NCBI RefSeq assembly: GCF_003576455.2
Contig: NZ_CP032869.1
Span: 5,642,001 to 5,706,000 of the forward strand
Direction of reading: 5' to 3'
Length of the DNA: 64,000 bases
Origin: Mucilaginibacter celer
GTDB lineage: Bacteria; Bacteroidota; Bacteroidia; Sphingobacteriales; Sphingobacteriaceae
In this document: piece by piece, positions 42,645 through 49,474 of the stretch
Layout: every line of letters starts with the position of its first letter
Position numbering within the stretch: the stretch's first letter is position 1
Program-made: the position numbers and the translations under genes
The notes under the pieces: generated by a model
Told to the model about the DNA's origin: nothing
The model's input: only the letters and a program-made list of their open reading frames with translations
Databases searched by the model: none

Positions 42645-43916
42645 ATGCTGCAAGTTAGTTATATCCGTGATAACCGGGAACAGGTTTTGGAACGTTTGGC
42701 TGTAAAAAATTTTAAACAGCCCGAACTGGTTGATGAAATAATTGAACTGGATGATAAACGCCGCTCCACTCAAACCAGTATGGATAACGTTTCGGCCGAG
42801 GCCAATGCAGCTGCAAAACAAATAGGCGAGCTGATGCGTACCGGCAAAAAAGACGAAGCCGAAGGCATCAAAGCTAAAACCGGTGCATGGAAAGAAGAGA
42901 TCAAAAAATTTGGCGATCTGCTTGCTGCCACAGAAGAAGAGCTTTACCAAAAACTGGTTTTGCTACCCAATCTGCCCCACAGCTCGGTACCCAAAGGCCT
43001 TACGCCCGAGGATAATGAAGTTGTTTTAGAGAACGGCGATAAACCGGAACTGCCTGCCGATGCCCTGCCGCATTGGGAACTGGCTGCCAAATACGGCCTG
43101 ATAGATTTTGAACTTGGTGTTAAAATAACCGGTGCCGGTTTCCCGGTATATAAAGGCAAAGGTGCCAAACTGCAACGCGCACTCATCAATTATTTTATTG
43201 ACGAGGCCGAAAAAGCTGGCTATAGCGAAGTAAGCGTACCGCTGATGGTGAATGAAGCATCAGGTTTCGGCACATCACAGCTGCCGGATAAGGAAGGGCA
43301 GATGTATCATGTAGGTATTGATAACCTGTACCTCATCCCTACTGCCGAGGTACCTATCACCAACCTGTACCGCGACGTTATTGTGAAAGAAGACCAGCTA
43401 CCTATCCGCAATTGCGGGCATACGCCATGTTTCCGCCGCGAAGCTGGATCATACGGCGCGCATGTACGTGGCCTTAACCGCTTGCACCAGTTTGATAAGG
43501 TGGAGATTGTTACCATTGCACATCCCGATAAATCGTACGAGATATTGGAACTAATGAGCAATCACGTACAGGGCTTATTGAAAAACTTAGGTTTGCCTTA
43601 CCGCGTATTGCGCCTTTGCGGCGGCGATATGGGCTTTGGCTCGGCTTTAACTTACGATATGGAAACCTGGAGCGCTGCGCAACAACGCTGGCTGGAAGTA
43701 TCATCGGTATCAAACTTCGAAACTTTTCAGAGCAACAGACTTAAACTGCGTTTCCGTAATGCCGATGGTAAAACGCAGTTGGCGCATACGCTTAATGGCA
43801 GCGCGTTGGCTTTGCCTCGTATCGTGGCTACTTTATTAGAGAACAACCAAACTGAAAAAGGTATTAAAGTACCCGAAGTGCTGGTGCCTTACACTAAGTT
43901 TGAGTGGATAGATTAA
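42645..43916 (+). CDS. serS: seryl-tRNA synthetase
   Basis: 423 residues. N-terminal coiled-coil arm for tRNA-Ser (about 25-100, LVDEIIELDDKRRSTQTSMDNVSAEANAAAKQIGELMRTG) and class II core with motif 2 (TPCFRREAGSYG) and motif 3 (NGSALALPRIVATLLENNQ). Charges tRNA-Ser in two steps via seryl-adenylate. The leader is short and no regulatory structure was seen in it. Terminator at 43973-44008. Confidence 0.98.
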   Translation: MLQVSYIRDNREQVLERLAVKNFKQPELVDEIIELDDKRRSTQTSMDNVSAEANAAAKQIGELMRTGKKDEAEGIKAKTGAWKEEIKKFGDLLAATEEELYQKLVLLPNLPHSSVPKGLTPEDNEVVLENGDKPELPADALPHWELAAKYGLIDFELGVKITGAGFPVYKGKGAKLQRALINYFIDEAEKAGYSEVSVPLMVNEASGFGTSQLPDKEGQMYHVGIDNLYLIPTAEVPITNLYRDVIVKEDQLPIRNCGHTPCFRREAGSYGAHVRGLNRLHQFDKVEIVTIAHPDKSYEILELMSNHVQGLLKNLGLPYRVLRLCGGDMGFGSALTYDMETWSAAQQRWLEVSSVSNFETFQSNRLKLRFRNADGKTQLAHTLNGSALALPRIVATLLENNQTEKGIKVPEVLVPYTKFEWID

Positions 43917-43972: not shown

Positions 43973-44008
43973 AACAAAGCCGCCTCTTTAATTGGGGTGG
44001 CTTTGTTA
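43973..44008 (+). terminator. intrinsic terminator of serS
   Basis: AACAAAGCCGCC pairs with GGTGGCTTTGTT (one wobble pair) with a 12-nt loop, 56 bp after the stop. The remaining gap up to 44190 contains no gene; the thr leader promoter should lie in its right part. Confidence 0.75.
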
Positions 44009-44190
44009 TTTATATGCTGATGCTTTTAATACAGCGGCATCCTGCGGATGTCTGTGCCGAAATTATACTACGCCTTTTACAAAACTGTTAAATCAGGCAC
44101 TAACTCGTTGATAATTATTGCTAAAATCATAATTTGTAAAATAATCCTTGCAAATCAGAAAATAATCTACTTACTTTACCGACATTATAT

Positions 44191-44256
44191 ATGACAATTA
44201 ACAACACCATTTCTACCATTATTATTACCACCGGTATAAACCTCGGAGGAAGATAA
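44191..44256 (+). CDS. Thr/Ile-rich leader peptide of the thr operon
   Basis: A 21-codon open frame with five threonines and six isoleucines, including runs T-I-I-I-T-T, ending LGGR and TAA. It lies directly upstream of an attenuator (44244-44327) and thrA. This is the design of the thrL leader of enterobacteria, where ribosome stalling at Thr/Ile codons senses charged tRNA; homology is not implied. A possible -7 element TACTTTA near 44172-44178 would make it almost leaderless. Confidence 0.82.
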   Translation: MTINNTISTIIITTGINLGGR

Positions 44257-44327
44257 TCGTATGGTGTAAAAACATAAAATGAAAACCAAAAGAAAAAACC
44301 TTCCTCCGCAAAGAGGAAGGTTTTTTT
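44244..44327 (+). promoter_or_regulatory. thr operon attenuator (antiterminator and terminator)
   Basis: Terminator: CCTTCCTC (44299-44306) pairs with GAGGAAGG (44313-44320), loop CGCAAA, then T7. Antiterminator: CGGAGGAAG at 44244-44252, within the last codons of the leader peptide, is exactly complementary to CTTCCTCCG at 44300-44308, the left arm of the terminator. A ribosome stalled on the Thr/Ile codons (before 44240) leaves it free to pair, preventing termination; a ribosome reaching the stop codon covers it and termination follows. thrA begins 26 nt after the T-run. An additional pairing ACACCAT (44204-44210) / ATGGTGT (44261-44267) may form a pause hairpin. Confidence 0.85.
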
Positions 44328-44353
44328 GTTATAGAACGATTACTAAACCATAA

Positions 44354-46804
44354 ATGAAAGTTTTAAAATTCGGAGGTACTTCCGTTGGGTCTGTAGCCAG
44401 CATCCAAACCCTGTTAAACATCCTGAAGGATGAAGTAAAAAATGAAGAGAAACCGGTGGTGGTGCTATCGGCCATGGGCGGCGTAACCAACCTGCTCTCG
44501 GCTATGGCCGAAGATGCGGCAAACGGCAAAGAATTTACTGCCGGACTGGCCGAGCTGGAAAAACGCCACTTTGATACGGTAAAAGCCCTGCTTGATGTGC
44601 AAAACCAAAACCCGGCACTTACCCGCTTAAAAATCCACTTCAACCAGCTGGAAGAATTGTTACAGGGCGTACTTACCCTGCGCGAACTTACCCCGAAAAC
44701 CCGCGACCAGGTACTGGCTTTCGGCGAGCGCTGTTCAACTCTGATGGTGAGCAAAATTGCCGCCCAGCATTTTGGCGATGTGCTGTTTGTTGATGCCGCC
44801 GACGTAATCAAAACGGATAGCGCCTTCGGCAATGCCCGTGTTAATACCGAGCTTACCGAACAACTGATAAAAGGCCTGTATGCCGAAAACAAAGGCAAAA
44901 CCCTGATCGTTACCGGCTTTATTGCCTCAAACGATGTCGGGCAGACTACTACTTTAGGTCGCGGTGGTTCTGATTATACTGCTGCCATCTTCGGCGCGGC
45001 GTTAAATGCCCAGGAAATTCAGATCTGGACGGACGTTAACGGTATGATGACCGCCGATCCGCGGATGGTGAAAAAAGCATTCTCGTTAACCGAGCTTACT
45101 TATACCGAAGCGATGGAGCTCTCTTACTTCGGTGCCAAGGTGATCTACCCGCCAACCATGATCCCGGCTTTCATGAAAAAGATTCCTATCGTTATCAAAA
45201 ATACTTTCGAGCCGGAGTTTGAGGGTACCGTGATCCGTCATGATTGCAAGGCTTCTACCCTGCCTATCAAAGGTATTTCATCTATCAATAATATCAGCAT
45301 CCTCAATTTAGAGGGTAGCGGCATGGTTGGTAAATCGGGTTTTAGCGGCAGGTTGTTCTCGCTGCTGGCCCGTGAGCAGATCAACGTGATCCTCATTACC
45401 CAGTCATCTTCAGAGCACAGCATCACTTTCGCCGTTCAGCCTCAGGATACCGAAAGAGCCAAACAGGTTATTGAGCAGGAGTTTGAACTGGAGCTGGCCG
45501 CCAAAAAACTGGAGCATATCGTAATCGAAAAAAACTTAGCTATCCTGGCTATAGTAGGCGAAAACATGAAGCAAACGCCCGGCATGTCGGGCAAGTTGTT
45601 CCATGCGTTGGGCCGTAACGGCGTTAACGTAAGGGCTATAGCGCAAGGTTCTTCAGAATATAATATCTCGGTGATCATCTCGGCTAATGATTTATCAAAA
45701 GCGCTAAACGCCGTGCACGATGCCTTTTTTGTACAGCTTACTAAAACCCTGCATGCATTCTGCTTGGGTACCGGCAACATAGGCAAAACTTTGTTCAACC
45801 AATTAAATGCCCATACCCAATACCTGAAAGATAACAACGGTATCCAGGTTAAAATAGCCGGTATCAGCAATACCCGCAAAATGACTTTCAACAGCGATGG
45901 TATTTCGCTGGATACCTGGCAGCATGATCTGGATAACGCGCTACACGAAGCCGACCTGGCTAATTTTGTAGAGCGCATGAAGGAAATGAACCTGCCTAAC
46001 TGCGTATTTATTGATAACACCGCCAGCCCTAAGCCAATTGCTTTTTACGAGGAGGTTTTCAAAGCCAATATCTCGGTTATTACCTGTAATAAAATAGGAA
46101 ACTCGGGCAGCTATCAGCAATACCGTACTTTTAAAGATACCGCCCGCGCCCATGGCGTTGATTTCTTTTACGAAACCAACGTTGGTGCAGGCCTGCCGAT
46201 CATTAACACACTTAACAACCTGATGAACAGCGGCGACAGGGTGCAGCGTATCGAGGCTATCCTTTCGGGCACCATCTCGTTCATCTTTAATAATTTTAAA
46301 GGCGATGCCAACTTCCATGATGTGGTAAAAGAAGCACAGGATAAAGGCTACACAGAACCCGATCCGCGCGACGACCTGAGCGGCAAGGATTTTATGCGTA
46401 AAATGCTCATCCTTGCCCGTGATGCAGGTTATGCGATGGAAGAAAGCGATGTAGAAATTGAAAGCGTACTGCCAAAAGCCAGCCTTGAAGCCAAAACCGT
46501 TGAAGACTTTTATGCTACCCTTAAAACCGAAGACGCGCACTTTGCCAAACTGAAAGATGCGGCCGAGAAAGATGGCAAGGTTTTACGCTACATTGGTAAG
46601 CTTGAAAATGGCAAAGTAAGCATCACCCTACAAATGGTTGATGAAAACCACCCATTCTACATGCTATCGGGCAGCGATAACATCATCTCTTTCACAACCG
46701 ACAGGTACCGCGAGCGCCCACTGGTTGTAAAAGGCCCCGGCGCAGGTGCCGAAGTAACCGCCGCAGGTGTATTTGCTGATTTAATAAACGTAGGCGCGAA
46801 TTAA
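44354..46804 (+). CDS. thrA: bifunctional aspartate kinase / homoserine dehydrogenase I
   Basis: 816 residues, canonical two-domain enzyme. Aspartokinase part 1-~460 begins MKVLKFGGTSVGSV, has TTLGRGGSDYTA, two ACT-type regulatory regions (ISILNLEGSGMVGKSGFSGRLF, AILAIVGENMKQTPGMSGKLF). Homoserine dehydrogenase part ~465-816 starts CLGTGNIGKTLFNQL and contains TNVGAGLPIINTLNNL and EAILSGTISFIFN. Catalyses first and third steps towards threonine; feedback inhibition by threonine is expected. First gene of thrA-thrB-thrC and regulated by the attenuator upstream. Confidence 0.97.
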   Translation: MKVLKFGGTSVGSVASIQTLLNILKDEVKNEEKPVVVLSAMGGVTNLLSAMAEDAANGKEFTAGLAELEKRHFDTVKALLDVQNQNPALTRLKIHFNQLEELLQGVLTLRELTPKTRDQVLAFGERCSTLMVSKIAAQHFGDVLFVDAADVIKTDSAFGNARVNTELTEQLIKGLYAENKGKTLIVTGFIASNDVGQTTTLGRGGSDYTAAIFGAALNAQEIQIWTDVNGMMTADPRMVKKAFSLTELTYTEAMELSYFGAKVIYPPTMIPAFMKKIPIVIKNTFEPEFEGTVIRHDCKASTLPIKGISSINNISILNLEGSGMVGKSGFSGRLFSLLAREQINVILITQSSSEHSITFAVQPQDTERAKQVIEQEFELELAAKKLEHIVIEKNLAILAIVGENMKQTPGMSGKLFHALGRNGVNVRAIAQGSSEYNISVIISANDLSKALNAVHDAFFVQLTKTLHAFCLGTGNIGKTLFNQLNAHTQYLKDNNGIQVKIAGISNTRKMTFNSDGISLDTWQHDLDNALHEADLANFVERMKEMNLPNCVFIDNTASPKPIAFYEEVFKANISVITCNKIGNSGSYQQYRTFKDTARAHGVDFFYETNVGAGLPIINTLNNLMNSGDRVQRIEAILSGTISFIFNNFKGDANFHDVVKEAQDKGYTEPDPRDDLSGKDFMRKMLILARDAGYAMEESDVEIESVLPKASLEAKTVEDFYATLKTEDAHFAKLKDAAEKDGKVLRYIGKLENGKVSITLQMVDENHPFYMLSGSDNIISFTTDRYRERPLVVKGPGAGAEVTAAGVFADLINVGAN

Positions 46805-46815
46805 GCTTTTTCAAA

Positions 46816-46921
46816 TCCCCTCTTGAGAGGGGGCGCGGAGGAAAAGAGCGCGAGCAGGGGTGTGTTATACGAGCGATAAACCATACAGGATAACACACCC
46901 CTCCACCCCTCTCAAGAGGGG
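46816..46921. repeat. dispersed palindromic element between thrA and thrB
   Basis: TCCCCTCTTGAGAGGGGG at the left and CCCCTCTCAAGAGGGGA at the right form the outer arms; GCAGGGGTGTGTT and AACACACCCCTCC form inner arms. Same family as the element embedded in the LolA-like gene (9239-9371). In a polycistronic thr mRNA this hairpin would sit between the cistrons and could affect stability. Confidence 0.85.
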
Positions 46922-46993
46922 AATCACACAGTCCCCGCTTCTTAGCTTCAAAAAGCTATGCAGGCGATGATCAATAGTTTGATATTTTAAATA

Positions 46994-47992
46994 ATGGAAG
47001 ATAATAAGTTACAAGAATTAGCCCCCACTCCTTTAGCTCCCCCTTCAGGGGGCCGGGAGGGCGACAGCGTTCACGTTTTCGCCCCGGCAACGGTAGCCAA
47101 CGTAGTTTGCGGATTCGATGTGTTAGGTTTTGCCGTTGATGAGCCCGGCGACGAAGTGATTATGCGCGTTACCAACAAGCCCGGCATCACCCTAAGCAAA
47201 ATTACCGGTGATGATGGTCGTTTACCGCTCGATCCGGCTAAGAACACCGTGAGCGTGAGTGTTCAACATTACTTGCAGAGCGTTGGTCGTACCGATATCG
47301 GTTTAGATATCGAACTGCATAAAAAAATGCCTATTGGTAGTGGCCTGGGTTCAAGCTCGGCCAGTACCGTTGCGGGGTTGTTTGCTATTAAAACTTTGTT
47401 GGGCGATAATGCAGACCCGATAAAATTGCTTCCTTTTGCTATGAAGGGCGAGGAAATGGCTTGCGGGCATGGCCACGCCGATAATGTGGCTCCAGCCTTG
47501 TTTGGTGGCTTTGTGCTGATCCGTAGTTATGAGCCTTTGGATGTGGTAAGATTACCGCACCCTAAAGATTTGTGGTGTGCCATTGTATTCCCTGATGTGG
47601 ATGTACCTACCCGCGAAGCCCGCCAGATTATCCGCAAAAACATCCAGATGAAAGACGCCGTTACCCAGTGGGGCAACATAGCCGGCCTGGTAAGCGGCTT
47701 GTTTATGCAGGACATCGACCTGATTGGCCGCAGTATGAAGGATGTGCTGGTTGAGCCGGTACGCTCCATGCTCATCCCCGATTTTTATAAAATGCGCGAA
47801 ATGGCCATGGAACTTGGCGCGGTAAGCTTTGGTATCTCCGGCTCAGGCCCGTCGGTTTTTGCTTTTACTAAAGATGAAGCGACAGCCCGTGCTATTACGC
47901 AGAAGTTACAGCAGCACTTAACCGGGCTTAAGATTGGCTCTAATAGTTATGTATCAACCATAAATGACGCAGGGCCGAAAGTTTTGGGCTAA
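46994..47992 (+). CDS. thrB: homoserine kinase with repeat-derived N-terminus
   Basis: 332 residues. GHMP kinase fold: FAPATVANVVCGFDVLGFA at the start of the family region (residue ~29), ATP-binding PIGSGLGSSSASTVAG, and GISGSGPSVFAF. Phosphorylates homoserine. About 28 extra N-terminal residues (KLQELAPTPLAPPSGGREGDS) precede the normal beginning; they correspond to a short palindromic repeat at 47021-47062 (CCCCCACTCCTTTAGCTCC / GGGGGCCGGGAGGG type). No in-frame ATG exists after the repeat, so the extension is probably translated. Confidence 0.94.
   Translation: MEDNKLQELAPTPLAPPSGGREGDSVHVFAPATVANVVCGFDVLGFAVDEPGDEVIMRVTNKPGITLSKITGDDGRLPLDPAKNTVSVSVQHYLQSVGRTDIGLDIELHKKMPIGSGLGSSSASTVAGLFAIKTLLGDNADPIKLLPFAMKGEEMACGHGHADNVAPALFGGFVLIRSYEPLDVVRLPHPKDLWCAIVFPDVDVPTREARQIIRKNIQMKDAVTQWGNIAGLVSGLFMQDIDLIGRSMKDVLVEPVRSMLIPDFYKMREMAMELGAVSFGISGSGPSVFAFTKDEATARAITQKLQQHLTGLKIGSNSYVSTINDAGPKVLG
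47021..47062. repeat. short palindrome inside thrB N-terminus
   Basis: A CTCCCCCTTCAGGGGGCCGGGAGG-like palindrome (shortened here) read in frame as PTPLAPPSGGREG. A relative, CCCCCCGGCCCCTTTAAGGGGGAGG-like, is at 17680-17706. Confidence 0.6.
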
Positions 47993-48021
47993 TCATCCAA
48001 AATCCGCTATAACCCATCACT

Positions 48022-48099
48022 TCATTGCGAGGTACGAGGCAATCGCACGGAAGCAGGTTCGCTCTGTATAGTTCGCGATTGCTTCGTACCTCGCAATGA
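48022..48099. repeat. palindromic repeat, family A copy 3
   Basis: TCATTGCGAGGTACGAGGCAATCG pairs (in short, CATTGCGAGGTACGA / TCGTACCTCGCAATG) across a central CTGTATAGTTCGCG region, which is inverted compared with the copies at 22579 and 41662. It separates thrB from thrC. Confidence 0.8.
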
Positions 48100-48163
48100 C
48101 GTGGCGGAGGAGGCCCTCAATAAAAAAAAACGAAATCGAACATCCGAATTCCGAAATCAAAAA

Positions 48164-49474
48164 ATGAAACTCTACAGTACCAATAATACCCTATCTGAAG
48201 TATCCTTTAAAGATGCCGTTTTTAACAGCATGCCGCAGGATAAAGGCCTGTACATGCCTTACAGCATCCCGCGTTTGGATGATGAATTTATCAACAACCT
48301 TGATAAATATTCCCTGCCCGAGATCGCCTTTAAAGTAGCCCAAAACCTGCTTGAAGATTCGATCCCGACAGACGATCTGAAAGCGCTGATTGATGATGCC
48401 ATCAACTTTCCTGCCCCAATAGTAAAACTGCAGGACAATGTTTATGTGCTCGAACTTTTCCACGGCCCATCACTGGCTTTTAAAGATTTTGGTGCCCGCT
48501 TCATGAGCCGCGTAATGAGCTATTTTCTTGAGCCGGGCGAAAAGCAGCTCGACGTATTAGTGGCCACCAGCGGCGATACCGGCGGTGCCGTAGCGCTTGG
48601 CTTTTTAGGTGTTCCTAACACTCGTGTAACCATCCTTTACCCCAAAGGCAAGGTAAGCGGTGTGCAAGAGCAGCAATTAACCACCAATGGCCAAAACATC
48701 CGCGCGCTTGAAGTTGATGGCACATTTGATGATTGCCAGGCTTTGGTAAAACAAGCTTTTGTTGATGAGGATTTGAATGCAAAATTCCGTTTAACATCGG
48801 CCAACTCTATCAATATAGCCCGCCTTGTGCCGCAAACTTTTTATTATTTCAATGCTTATGCTCAACTGTTAAGGCAGGGCATTAAAAAAGTAATATTCTC
48901 GGTACCAAGCGGTAACTTCGGTAACATCGGCGCCGGTTTATTGGCCTGGAAAATGGGCTTACCTGTCGAGAAATTCATCGCCGCCACCAATGCTAATGAT
49001 ACCGTGCCTGAGTTTTTAAAAACCGGCGTTTATCAGCCTAAGCCATCTGTAGCCACATTATCAAATGCGATGGACGTTGGCAACCCAAGCAACTGGGTTC
49101 GTATTGCCGATCTGTTTAAAAACGATACCGAAGCGTTAAAAGAATTAGTTGTTGGCTTTAAGTATGATGACGAACAAACCGTAAAAGCCATTAACTGGGT
49201 ATTTGATAGTTATGATTATGTGGTTTGCCCTCATACCGCCATAGCATGGCAGGCACTTACCGATTATCAGCAGGATCACGTGGCAGCAGATACCGCCGGT
49301 GCATTCCTTTCAACCGCGCATCCTTGCAAATTCCCGGATGTATTTAGCCCGGAAGTTGCCGCTAAAATTGATGTACCGGAGCAGGTGAAAGAGTTGGAAT
49401 CAAAAACCAAACTGGCTGTGGCCATCAGTAAAGATTTTGCTGATTTTAAAGGTTACCTTTTAGGGGTTGATTAA
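48164..49474 (+). CDS. thrC: threonine synthase
   Basis: 436 residues from the ATG at 48164; the TTG/GTG-type start at 48101 would begin inside the repeat and add 21 non-conserved residues. Starts MKLYSTNNTLSEVSFKDAV as in the short-chain threonine synthases. PLP-binding lysine in LAFKDFGARF, and phosphate-loop SGDTGGAVALGF and SVPSGNFGNIGAG are present. Converts O-phosphohomoserine to threonine, last step of the pathway and last gene of the operon. Confidence 0.97.
   Translation: MKLYSTNNTLSEVSFKDAVFNSMPQDKGLYMPYSIPRLDDEFINNLDKYSLPEIAFKVAQNLLEDSIPTDDLKALIDDAINFPAPIVKLQDNVYVLELFHGPSLAFKDFGARFMSRVMSYFLEPGEKQLDVLVATSGDTGGAVALGFLGVPNTRVTILYPKGKVSGVQEQQLTTNGQNIRALEVDGTFDDCQALVKQAFVDEDLNAKFRLTSANSINIARLVPQTFYYFNAYAQLLRQGIKKVIFSVPSGNFGNIGAGLLAWKMGLPVEKFIAATNANDTVPEFLKTGVYQPKPSVATLSNAMDVGNPSNWVRIADLFKNDTEALKELVVGFKYDDEQTVKAINWVFDSYDYVVCPHTAIAWQALTDYQQDHVAADTAGAFLSTAHPCKFPDVFSPEVAAKIDVPEQVKELESKTKLAVAISKDFADFKGYLLGVD

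Follow-up and report, generated by a model that had tools for sequence, protein, structure and literature searches.

The thrABC operon of Mucilaginibacter celer raises the question of what is encoded in the 437-nt region between serS and thrA, which holds a promoter-like element, a short leader ORF and an intrinsic terminator, and how these parts may act on threonine synthesis. The region lies in a 64,000-nt stretch of DNA, referred to here as the window, that is part of the 7.15 Mb chromosome (one contig, designated G000); all coordinates are those of the window, and all features with a strand are on the forward strand. Downstream of the leader, thrA, thrB and thrC follow on one strand. The product of thrA (44354-46804) is a fused aspartokinase-homoserine dehydrogenase (Pfam AA_kinase, ACT, NAD_binding_3 and Homoserine_dh), the aspartokinase part of which is 98% identical to its M. 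oryzae counterpart, while thrB (46994-47992) encodes a homoserine kinase of the GHMP kinase type (PF00288, PF08544) and thrC (48101-49474) a threonine synthase (PF14821, PF00291). Each gap between these genes contains a repeat, namely a palindromic repeat CCCCTCTTGAGAGGGG ... CACCCCTCTCAAGAGGGGAAT between thrA and thrB (46812-46930; 36 genome matches with at most 2 mismatches) and a REP-like palindrome (TCATTGCGAGGTACGAGGCAATC...) between thrB and thrC (48020-48105; 246 genome matches with at most 2 mismatches).

The upstream neighbour, serS (42645-43916; PF02403/PF00587), is followed by an intrinsic terminator of its own at 43973-44007 (14 pairs in the terminator scan, 7 of them G-C), which isolates the thr leader from transcription upstream. 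Between 43917 and 44230, the pattern TTG-N15-22-TAnnTTNN has a single match, with TTG at 44148, a 22-nt spacer and TACTTTAC ending at 44180. This is a probable promoter of the Bacteroidota type (44148-44180), and most Mucilaginibacter loci have a similar element ahead of the leader. Transcription would begin a few bases 5' of the leader ATG. A preliminary description of this DNA had named a transcript start downstream of 44256 as an observation that would speak against its reading of the region; the promoter-like element was found upstream of the leader instead.

The leader ORF (44191-44256) encodes the peptide MTINNTISTIIITTGINLGGR, followed by a stop codon. Its 21 codons include five for Thr and six for Ile, among them the run T-I-I-I-T-T. 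The final leader codons contain CGGAGGAAG (44244-44252), a perfect 9-nt complement of CTTCCTCCG (44300-44308), and the latter segment is common to this pairing and to the terminator located between the leader ORF and thrA (44292-44327). The terminator consists of a left arm (44292-44306), a loop of 6 nt and a right arm (44313-44327) forming 15 bp, together with a U tract, and the fold of 44288-44332 has an energy of -20.1 kcal/mol (z -7.3). The leader, the complement and their coordinates, as given in the preliminary description, proved exact, base for base. Neither the Thr/Ile richness nor the 9-nt complement is due to chance. Dinucleotide shuffling of the 437-nt intergenic region, repeated 5000 times, never produced an ORF of 10-40 amino acids with at least 11 Thr and Ile residues, making up at least 45% of the peptide, and when the leader region was shuffled 2000 times, a complement of at least 9 nt arose once.

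The same arrangement was looked for upstream of 104 thrA genes, which represent 21 genera of Sphingobacteriaceae. In 89 of these upstream regions, a simple stem search detected an intrinsic terminator that is preceded by a complement, and the best complement of the left arm begins 27-48 nt upstream in every one of the 89, with 98 nt searched. The leaders of these loci have a median of 21 codons, 6 Thr and 4 Ile, and 82 of the 89 contain at least 4 Thr codons. A Thr-rich leader is visible in most of the family loci outside this set, four of which (L099-L102) have another, terminator-less architecture; no leader was seen in the upstream regions L097, L098 and L103. Among named Mucilaginibacter genomes with sufficient upstream sequence, the leader is kept in 76 of 79 loci, and in the Mucilaginibacter-like loci L273, L274 and L276 no leader was recognisable within 450 nt upstream. 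At a locus in family f2 (L120; ThrA 62% identical), a Thr-poor short ORF with Met and Ile is followed by a CCTTCCTCC hairpin that has no U tract, an arrangement that resembles an attenuator which has decayed or been altered.

Within the genus, the 71 leaders of 21 codons keep Thr6 in 69 cases, Thr13 in 70 and Thr14 in 68. Codons 9-10 vary by synonymous exchange among ACA, ACC, ACT and ACG, as a constraint on the coding sequence would give. Codons 19-21 (GGA GGA AGA, with GGA GGA as codons 19-20) are near-invariant, third positions included, as would be given by a constraint on the RNA. Across leaders, GGAGGAAG occurs in codon frame 0, 1 or 2 in 25, 14 and 8 cases, respectively, and is translated as GGR, EEG or RRK. 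Since it is read in all three frames, the constraint acts on the RNA and not on the peptide.

The leader end and the terminator arm also change together. Covariants, with the leader given first and the arm second, include CGGGAC with GTCCCG (L055), ATCGGGAGC with GCTCCCGAT (L088), TGGGGG with CCCCCA (L081), and TCGGGAAGG with CCTTCCCGA (L115). In the MAFFT alignment (A1), the column-wise signal was diluted by a one-base misalignment of the antiterminator strand, and swap tests were therefore chosen. Pairing of leaders with their own terminators scored 20.1, as compared with 18.1 for terminators of other species, a result matched in 0 of 20000 permutations, though the sequences are related by descent and such counts are not calibrated probabilities. 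Loci of the TCCCGA type scored 17.6 with their own arms and ~13 with arms of the main type, and in the reciprocal swap, the main-type leaders scored 22.9 with their own arms and 13.3 with the others. As judged from these sequences, the reciprocal failure of the two classes is direct evidence for covariation, and the covariation of the alternative pairing that the preliminary description had proposed looking for was thus found. The antiterminator and terminator pairings are mutually exclusive and, on this comparative evidence, are kept in evolution by covariation. An inner helix of the antiterminator, TGGT/ACCA, hinted at by the conserved TATGGTGTAA and ACCAAA, was also tried and was rejected, as own pairs scored 11.35 and swapped pairs 11.26 (7103 of 20000 permutations).

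These results bear on two other explanations of the region. The terminator could be a plain one, acting as a constitutive brake or as an insulator between serS and thrA, with the leader ORF a chance by-product and no sensing of threonine. A second terminator beyond that of serS could simply insulate thrA, but an insulator accounts neither for the conservation of the leader, in which Thr clusters and their spacing are kept across family and genus, nor for the covariation of the leader end with the terminator, and this explanation is very improbable. Slightly less credible still is control exerted mainly on translation or mRNA stability, with GGAGGAAG as a Shine-Dalgarno-like site and a structure that gates access of ribosomes to thrA. 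GGAGG is similar to a Shine-Dalgarno core; however, GGAGGAAG is separated from the start of thrA by ~100 nt that hold the terminator and its U tract, both intact, it covaries with the terminator arm, and some genera have TCGGGA or TGGGGG in its place. In addition, one study describes flavobacteria as lacking Shine-Dalgarno sequences (PMC9723704). Sequence and its comparison make it very probable that the element is a ribosome-mediated attenuator of thrABC transcription. The compact switch suggested in the preliminary description is supported by the conservation, the covariation and the geometry, which is considered below.

The distance from the last Thr codon to the antiterminator strand is mostly 14-16 nt, which is about that from the ribosome A site to its leading edge. 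The interquartile range of the distance between the Thr/Ile cluster and the antiterminator strand is 3 nt, as compared with 10 nt for the stop codon, whose position varies between 24 nt downstream and 7 nt upstream of the point where the strand begins. As the distance from cluster to strand is kept while the stop codon wanders, the stalled ribosome seems to be what selection sees. In folding calculations on the nascent RNA with an assumed ribosome footprint, the probability of the antiterminator in the window is 0.98 with a ribosome at Thr13 or Thr14 and 0.00 with a ribosome at the stop codon. The corresponding means for the 89 homologues are 0.89 and 0.07, values that are partly circular because the antiterminator strand was itself located by complementarity. 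Equilibrium folding of the complete transcript favours the terminator in every case; hence, the switch would have to rest on kinetics.

From these data we infer the following course of events in the cell. The transcript would begin just 5' of 44191, and a ribosome following RNA polymerase would translate the 21-codon leader. If charged tRNA-Thr were in short supply, the ribosome would halt at the ACC ACC codons of Thr13-Thr14 (44227-44232), which genus conservation and the footprint model mark as the principal regulatory codons, with its leading edge at ~44242. The antiterminator strand CGGAGGAAG (44244-44252), assigned by complementarity, genus conservation and covariation, would then be left free to pair with the emerging CTTCCTCCG (44300-44308), so that the terminator would be blocked and thrA transcribed. 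With threonine in ample supply, the ribosome would reach the stop codon at 44254 and mask 44244-44252, whereupon the terminator at 44292-44327 would fold and the transcript would end near 44327.

Threonine is likely to be the signal, and isoleucine would be an optional second signal, at most auxiliary. Of the Thr/Ile codons, whose lack of conservation the preliminary description had named as speaking against its reading, those for Thr are universal among the leaders, while the leaders of some genera have few Ile codons or none, as for example MTFYTTYTTTTTTLKA. A refinement compatible with the attenuator reading is that Ile and Thr are sensed about equally, as in E. coli. The window leader has six Ile codons, Ile is frequent at codons 11, 12 and 16 of Mucilaginibacter leaders, both Thr and Ile codons occur in the E. 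coli thrL leader, and stalls at Ile10-Ile12 would still be compatible with the switch. However, Thr replaces Ile at codon 12 in 24 of the 71 genus leaders and Ile is missing from several family leaders, whereas the Thr13-Thr14 pair is kept nearly everywhere. Moreover, a ribosome that stalled at Ile16 (44236) would itself mask the antiterminator strand, the probability of the antiterminator in the window being 0.28 in that state. Equal sensing of the two amino acids is hence a reasonable proposition, but we lean somewhat against it.

The thrL leader of E. coli is an established attenuator, and ribosome-mediated attenuation is best known from enterobacteria. The two systems share the thr operon, a Thr/Ile leader of 21 codons with thrA directly downstream, and an antiterminator strand in the final leader codons whose pairing with the terminator's left arm is perfect, and they behave alike in the footprint calculation. 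The thrL leader of E. coli K-12 (L119) ends in ...GGTGCGGGCTGA (GGT GCG GGC TGA), and its antiterminator GGTGCGGGCT, in place of GGAGGAAG here, matches the terminator arm AGCCCGCACC with perfect complementarity. That the antiterminator overlaps the leader stop, which the preliminary description had considered a difference from enterobacteria, is therefore true of E. coli thrL as well. The tract ATTACCACNGGTA (ITTG) is present in both leaders, and either common descent or convergence could account for it. The fate of an untranslated leader possibly differs between the two, as in E. coli the folding calculation gives a protector structure and an antiterminator probability of 0.12, whereas the window gives 0.50 to 0.96, depending on where the boundaries of the arms are set, and the homologues are mixed, ranging from 0 to 1.

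Despite this E. coli-like working, the element is not filed under the Rfam family Thr_leader (RF00506), since its score at 44198-44330 is 34.9 bits and the gathering cut-off is 55. None of 121 genomes of the family has a match at or above the cut-off. The Thr_leader model was rejected as a tool for surveying the family, as it also matches ordinary terminators at non-thr loci preceded by larger ORFs (L035, L036 and L044). No match was found in the plasmid collection.

In the literature searched, which leaves most subscription journals outside its coverage, no description of a thr attenuator or thr leader in Bacteroidota was found. By that measure the thr attenuator is new for the lineage, and it is classical in mechanism. 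A statement of 2010 held that leader-peptide systems were unknown beyond Proteobacteria and Actinobacteria before the finding in Firmicutes made in the same study (PMC2965389). The preliminary description was fair in calling attenuation of this operon in Bacteroidota little documented, but such control is not undocumented. For Flavobacterium psychrophilum, one report presents strong clues that leader peptides upstream of amino-acid operons act in attenuation (PMC9723704), and leader-like small ORFs are mentioned in B. thetaiotaomicron (PMC7366714). The F. psychrophilum cases likewise come from Bacteroidota and comprise transcript-supported, structured 5' regions with signs of leader peptides; they belong to another family, and the main text of the report names pheA and hisG, not thr (PMC9723704).

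Leaders for other amino acids were observed in the genome of the window. Upstream of hisG (L280:1218-1277; contig C1 of G000 near 3439493) is a His-rich leader, MNGIALHHLHLHHHHVVIS, with an 8-bp hairpin, ATCACCAC-CAT-GTGGTGAT, overlapping its final His codons, and no recognisable terminator was seen between this leader and hisG. Upstream of trpE (L284:718-862; C1 near 6260280), a Trp leader with WW and W is followed by an intrinsic terminator at 828-862, directly ahead of trpE. These his and trp leaders differ from the thr leader in the amino acid sensed. His-rich leaders precede hisG in many Bacteroidota (L286-L314), with a classical terminator in L287, L293, L295, L298 and L312, and without one in L288, L296, L299, L302 and L310.

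A Thr-rich leader without an intrinsic terminator precedes thrA in several other Bacteroidota families. In the regions of ~450 nt upstream of thrA that define this group (L133-L137, L140-L146, L148, L157, L164-L170, L173-L178, L186, L187 and L191, and also L099-L102), the Thr codons run into a hairpin of 5-9 bp, which usually encloses the leader stop codon and has covarying arms, such as TACCCC-TTA-GGGGTA, ACGGG-GTAA-CCCGT, CAACCC-GTTAA-GGGTTG and CCCGG-TAA-CCGGG. The hairpin is often followed by a CATAT(A/C) box (CATATA or CATATC) and then by a second hairpin, and the terminator-less Thr leaders gave no match in Rfam. It is conceivable, though we hold it as a tentative view, that the phylum has two architectures, one being that of the Sphingobacteriaceae attenuator and the other, terminator-less one a separate, so far undescribed leader-peptide control of Rho-dependent or translational type. 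As Thr and His leaders occur with and without terminators, and a Trp leader with one, leader-peptide control appears to be common in Bacteroidota and to have at least two architectures.

The comparative evidence indicates that classical attenuation very probably governs threonine synthesis throughout one family of Bacteroidota, a phylum with hardly any documentation of such control so far. The natural covariants provide a ready set for testing the switch, and the work on the thr attenuator also directs attention to neighbouring families, in which leaders without a terminator point to a second architecture.
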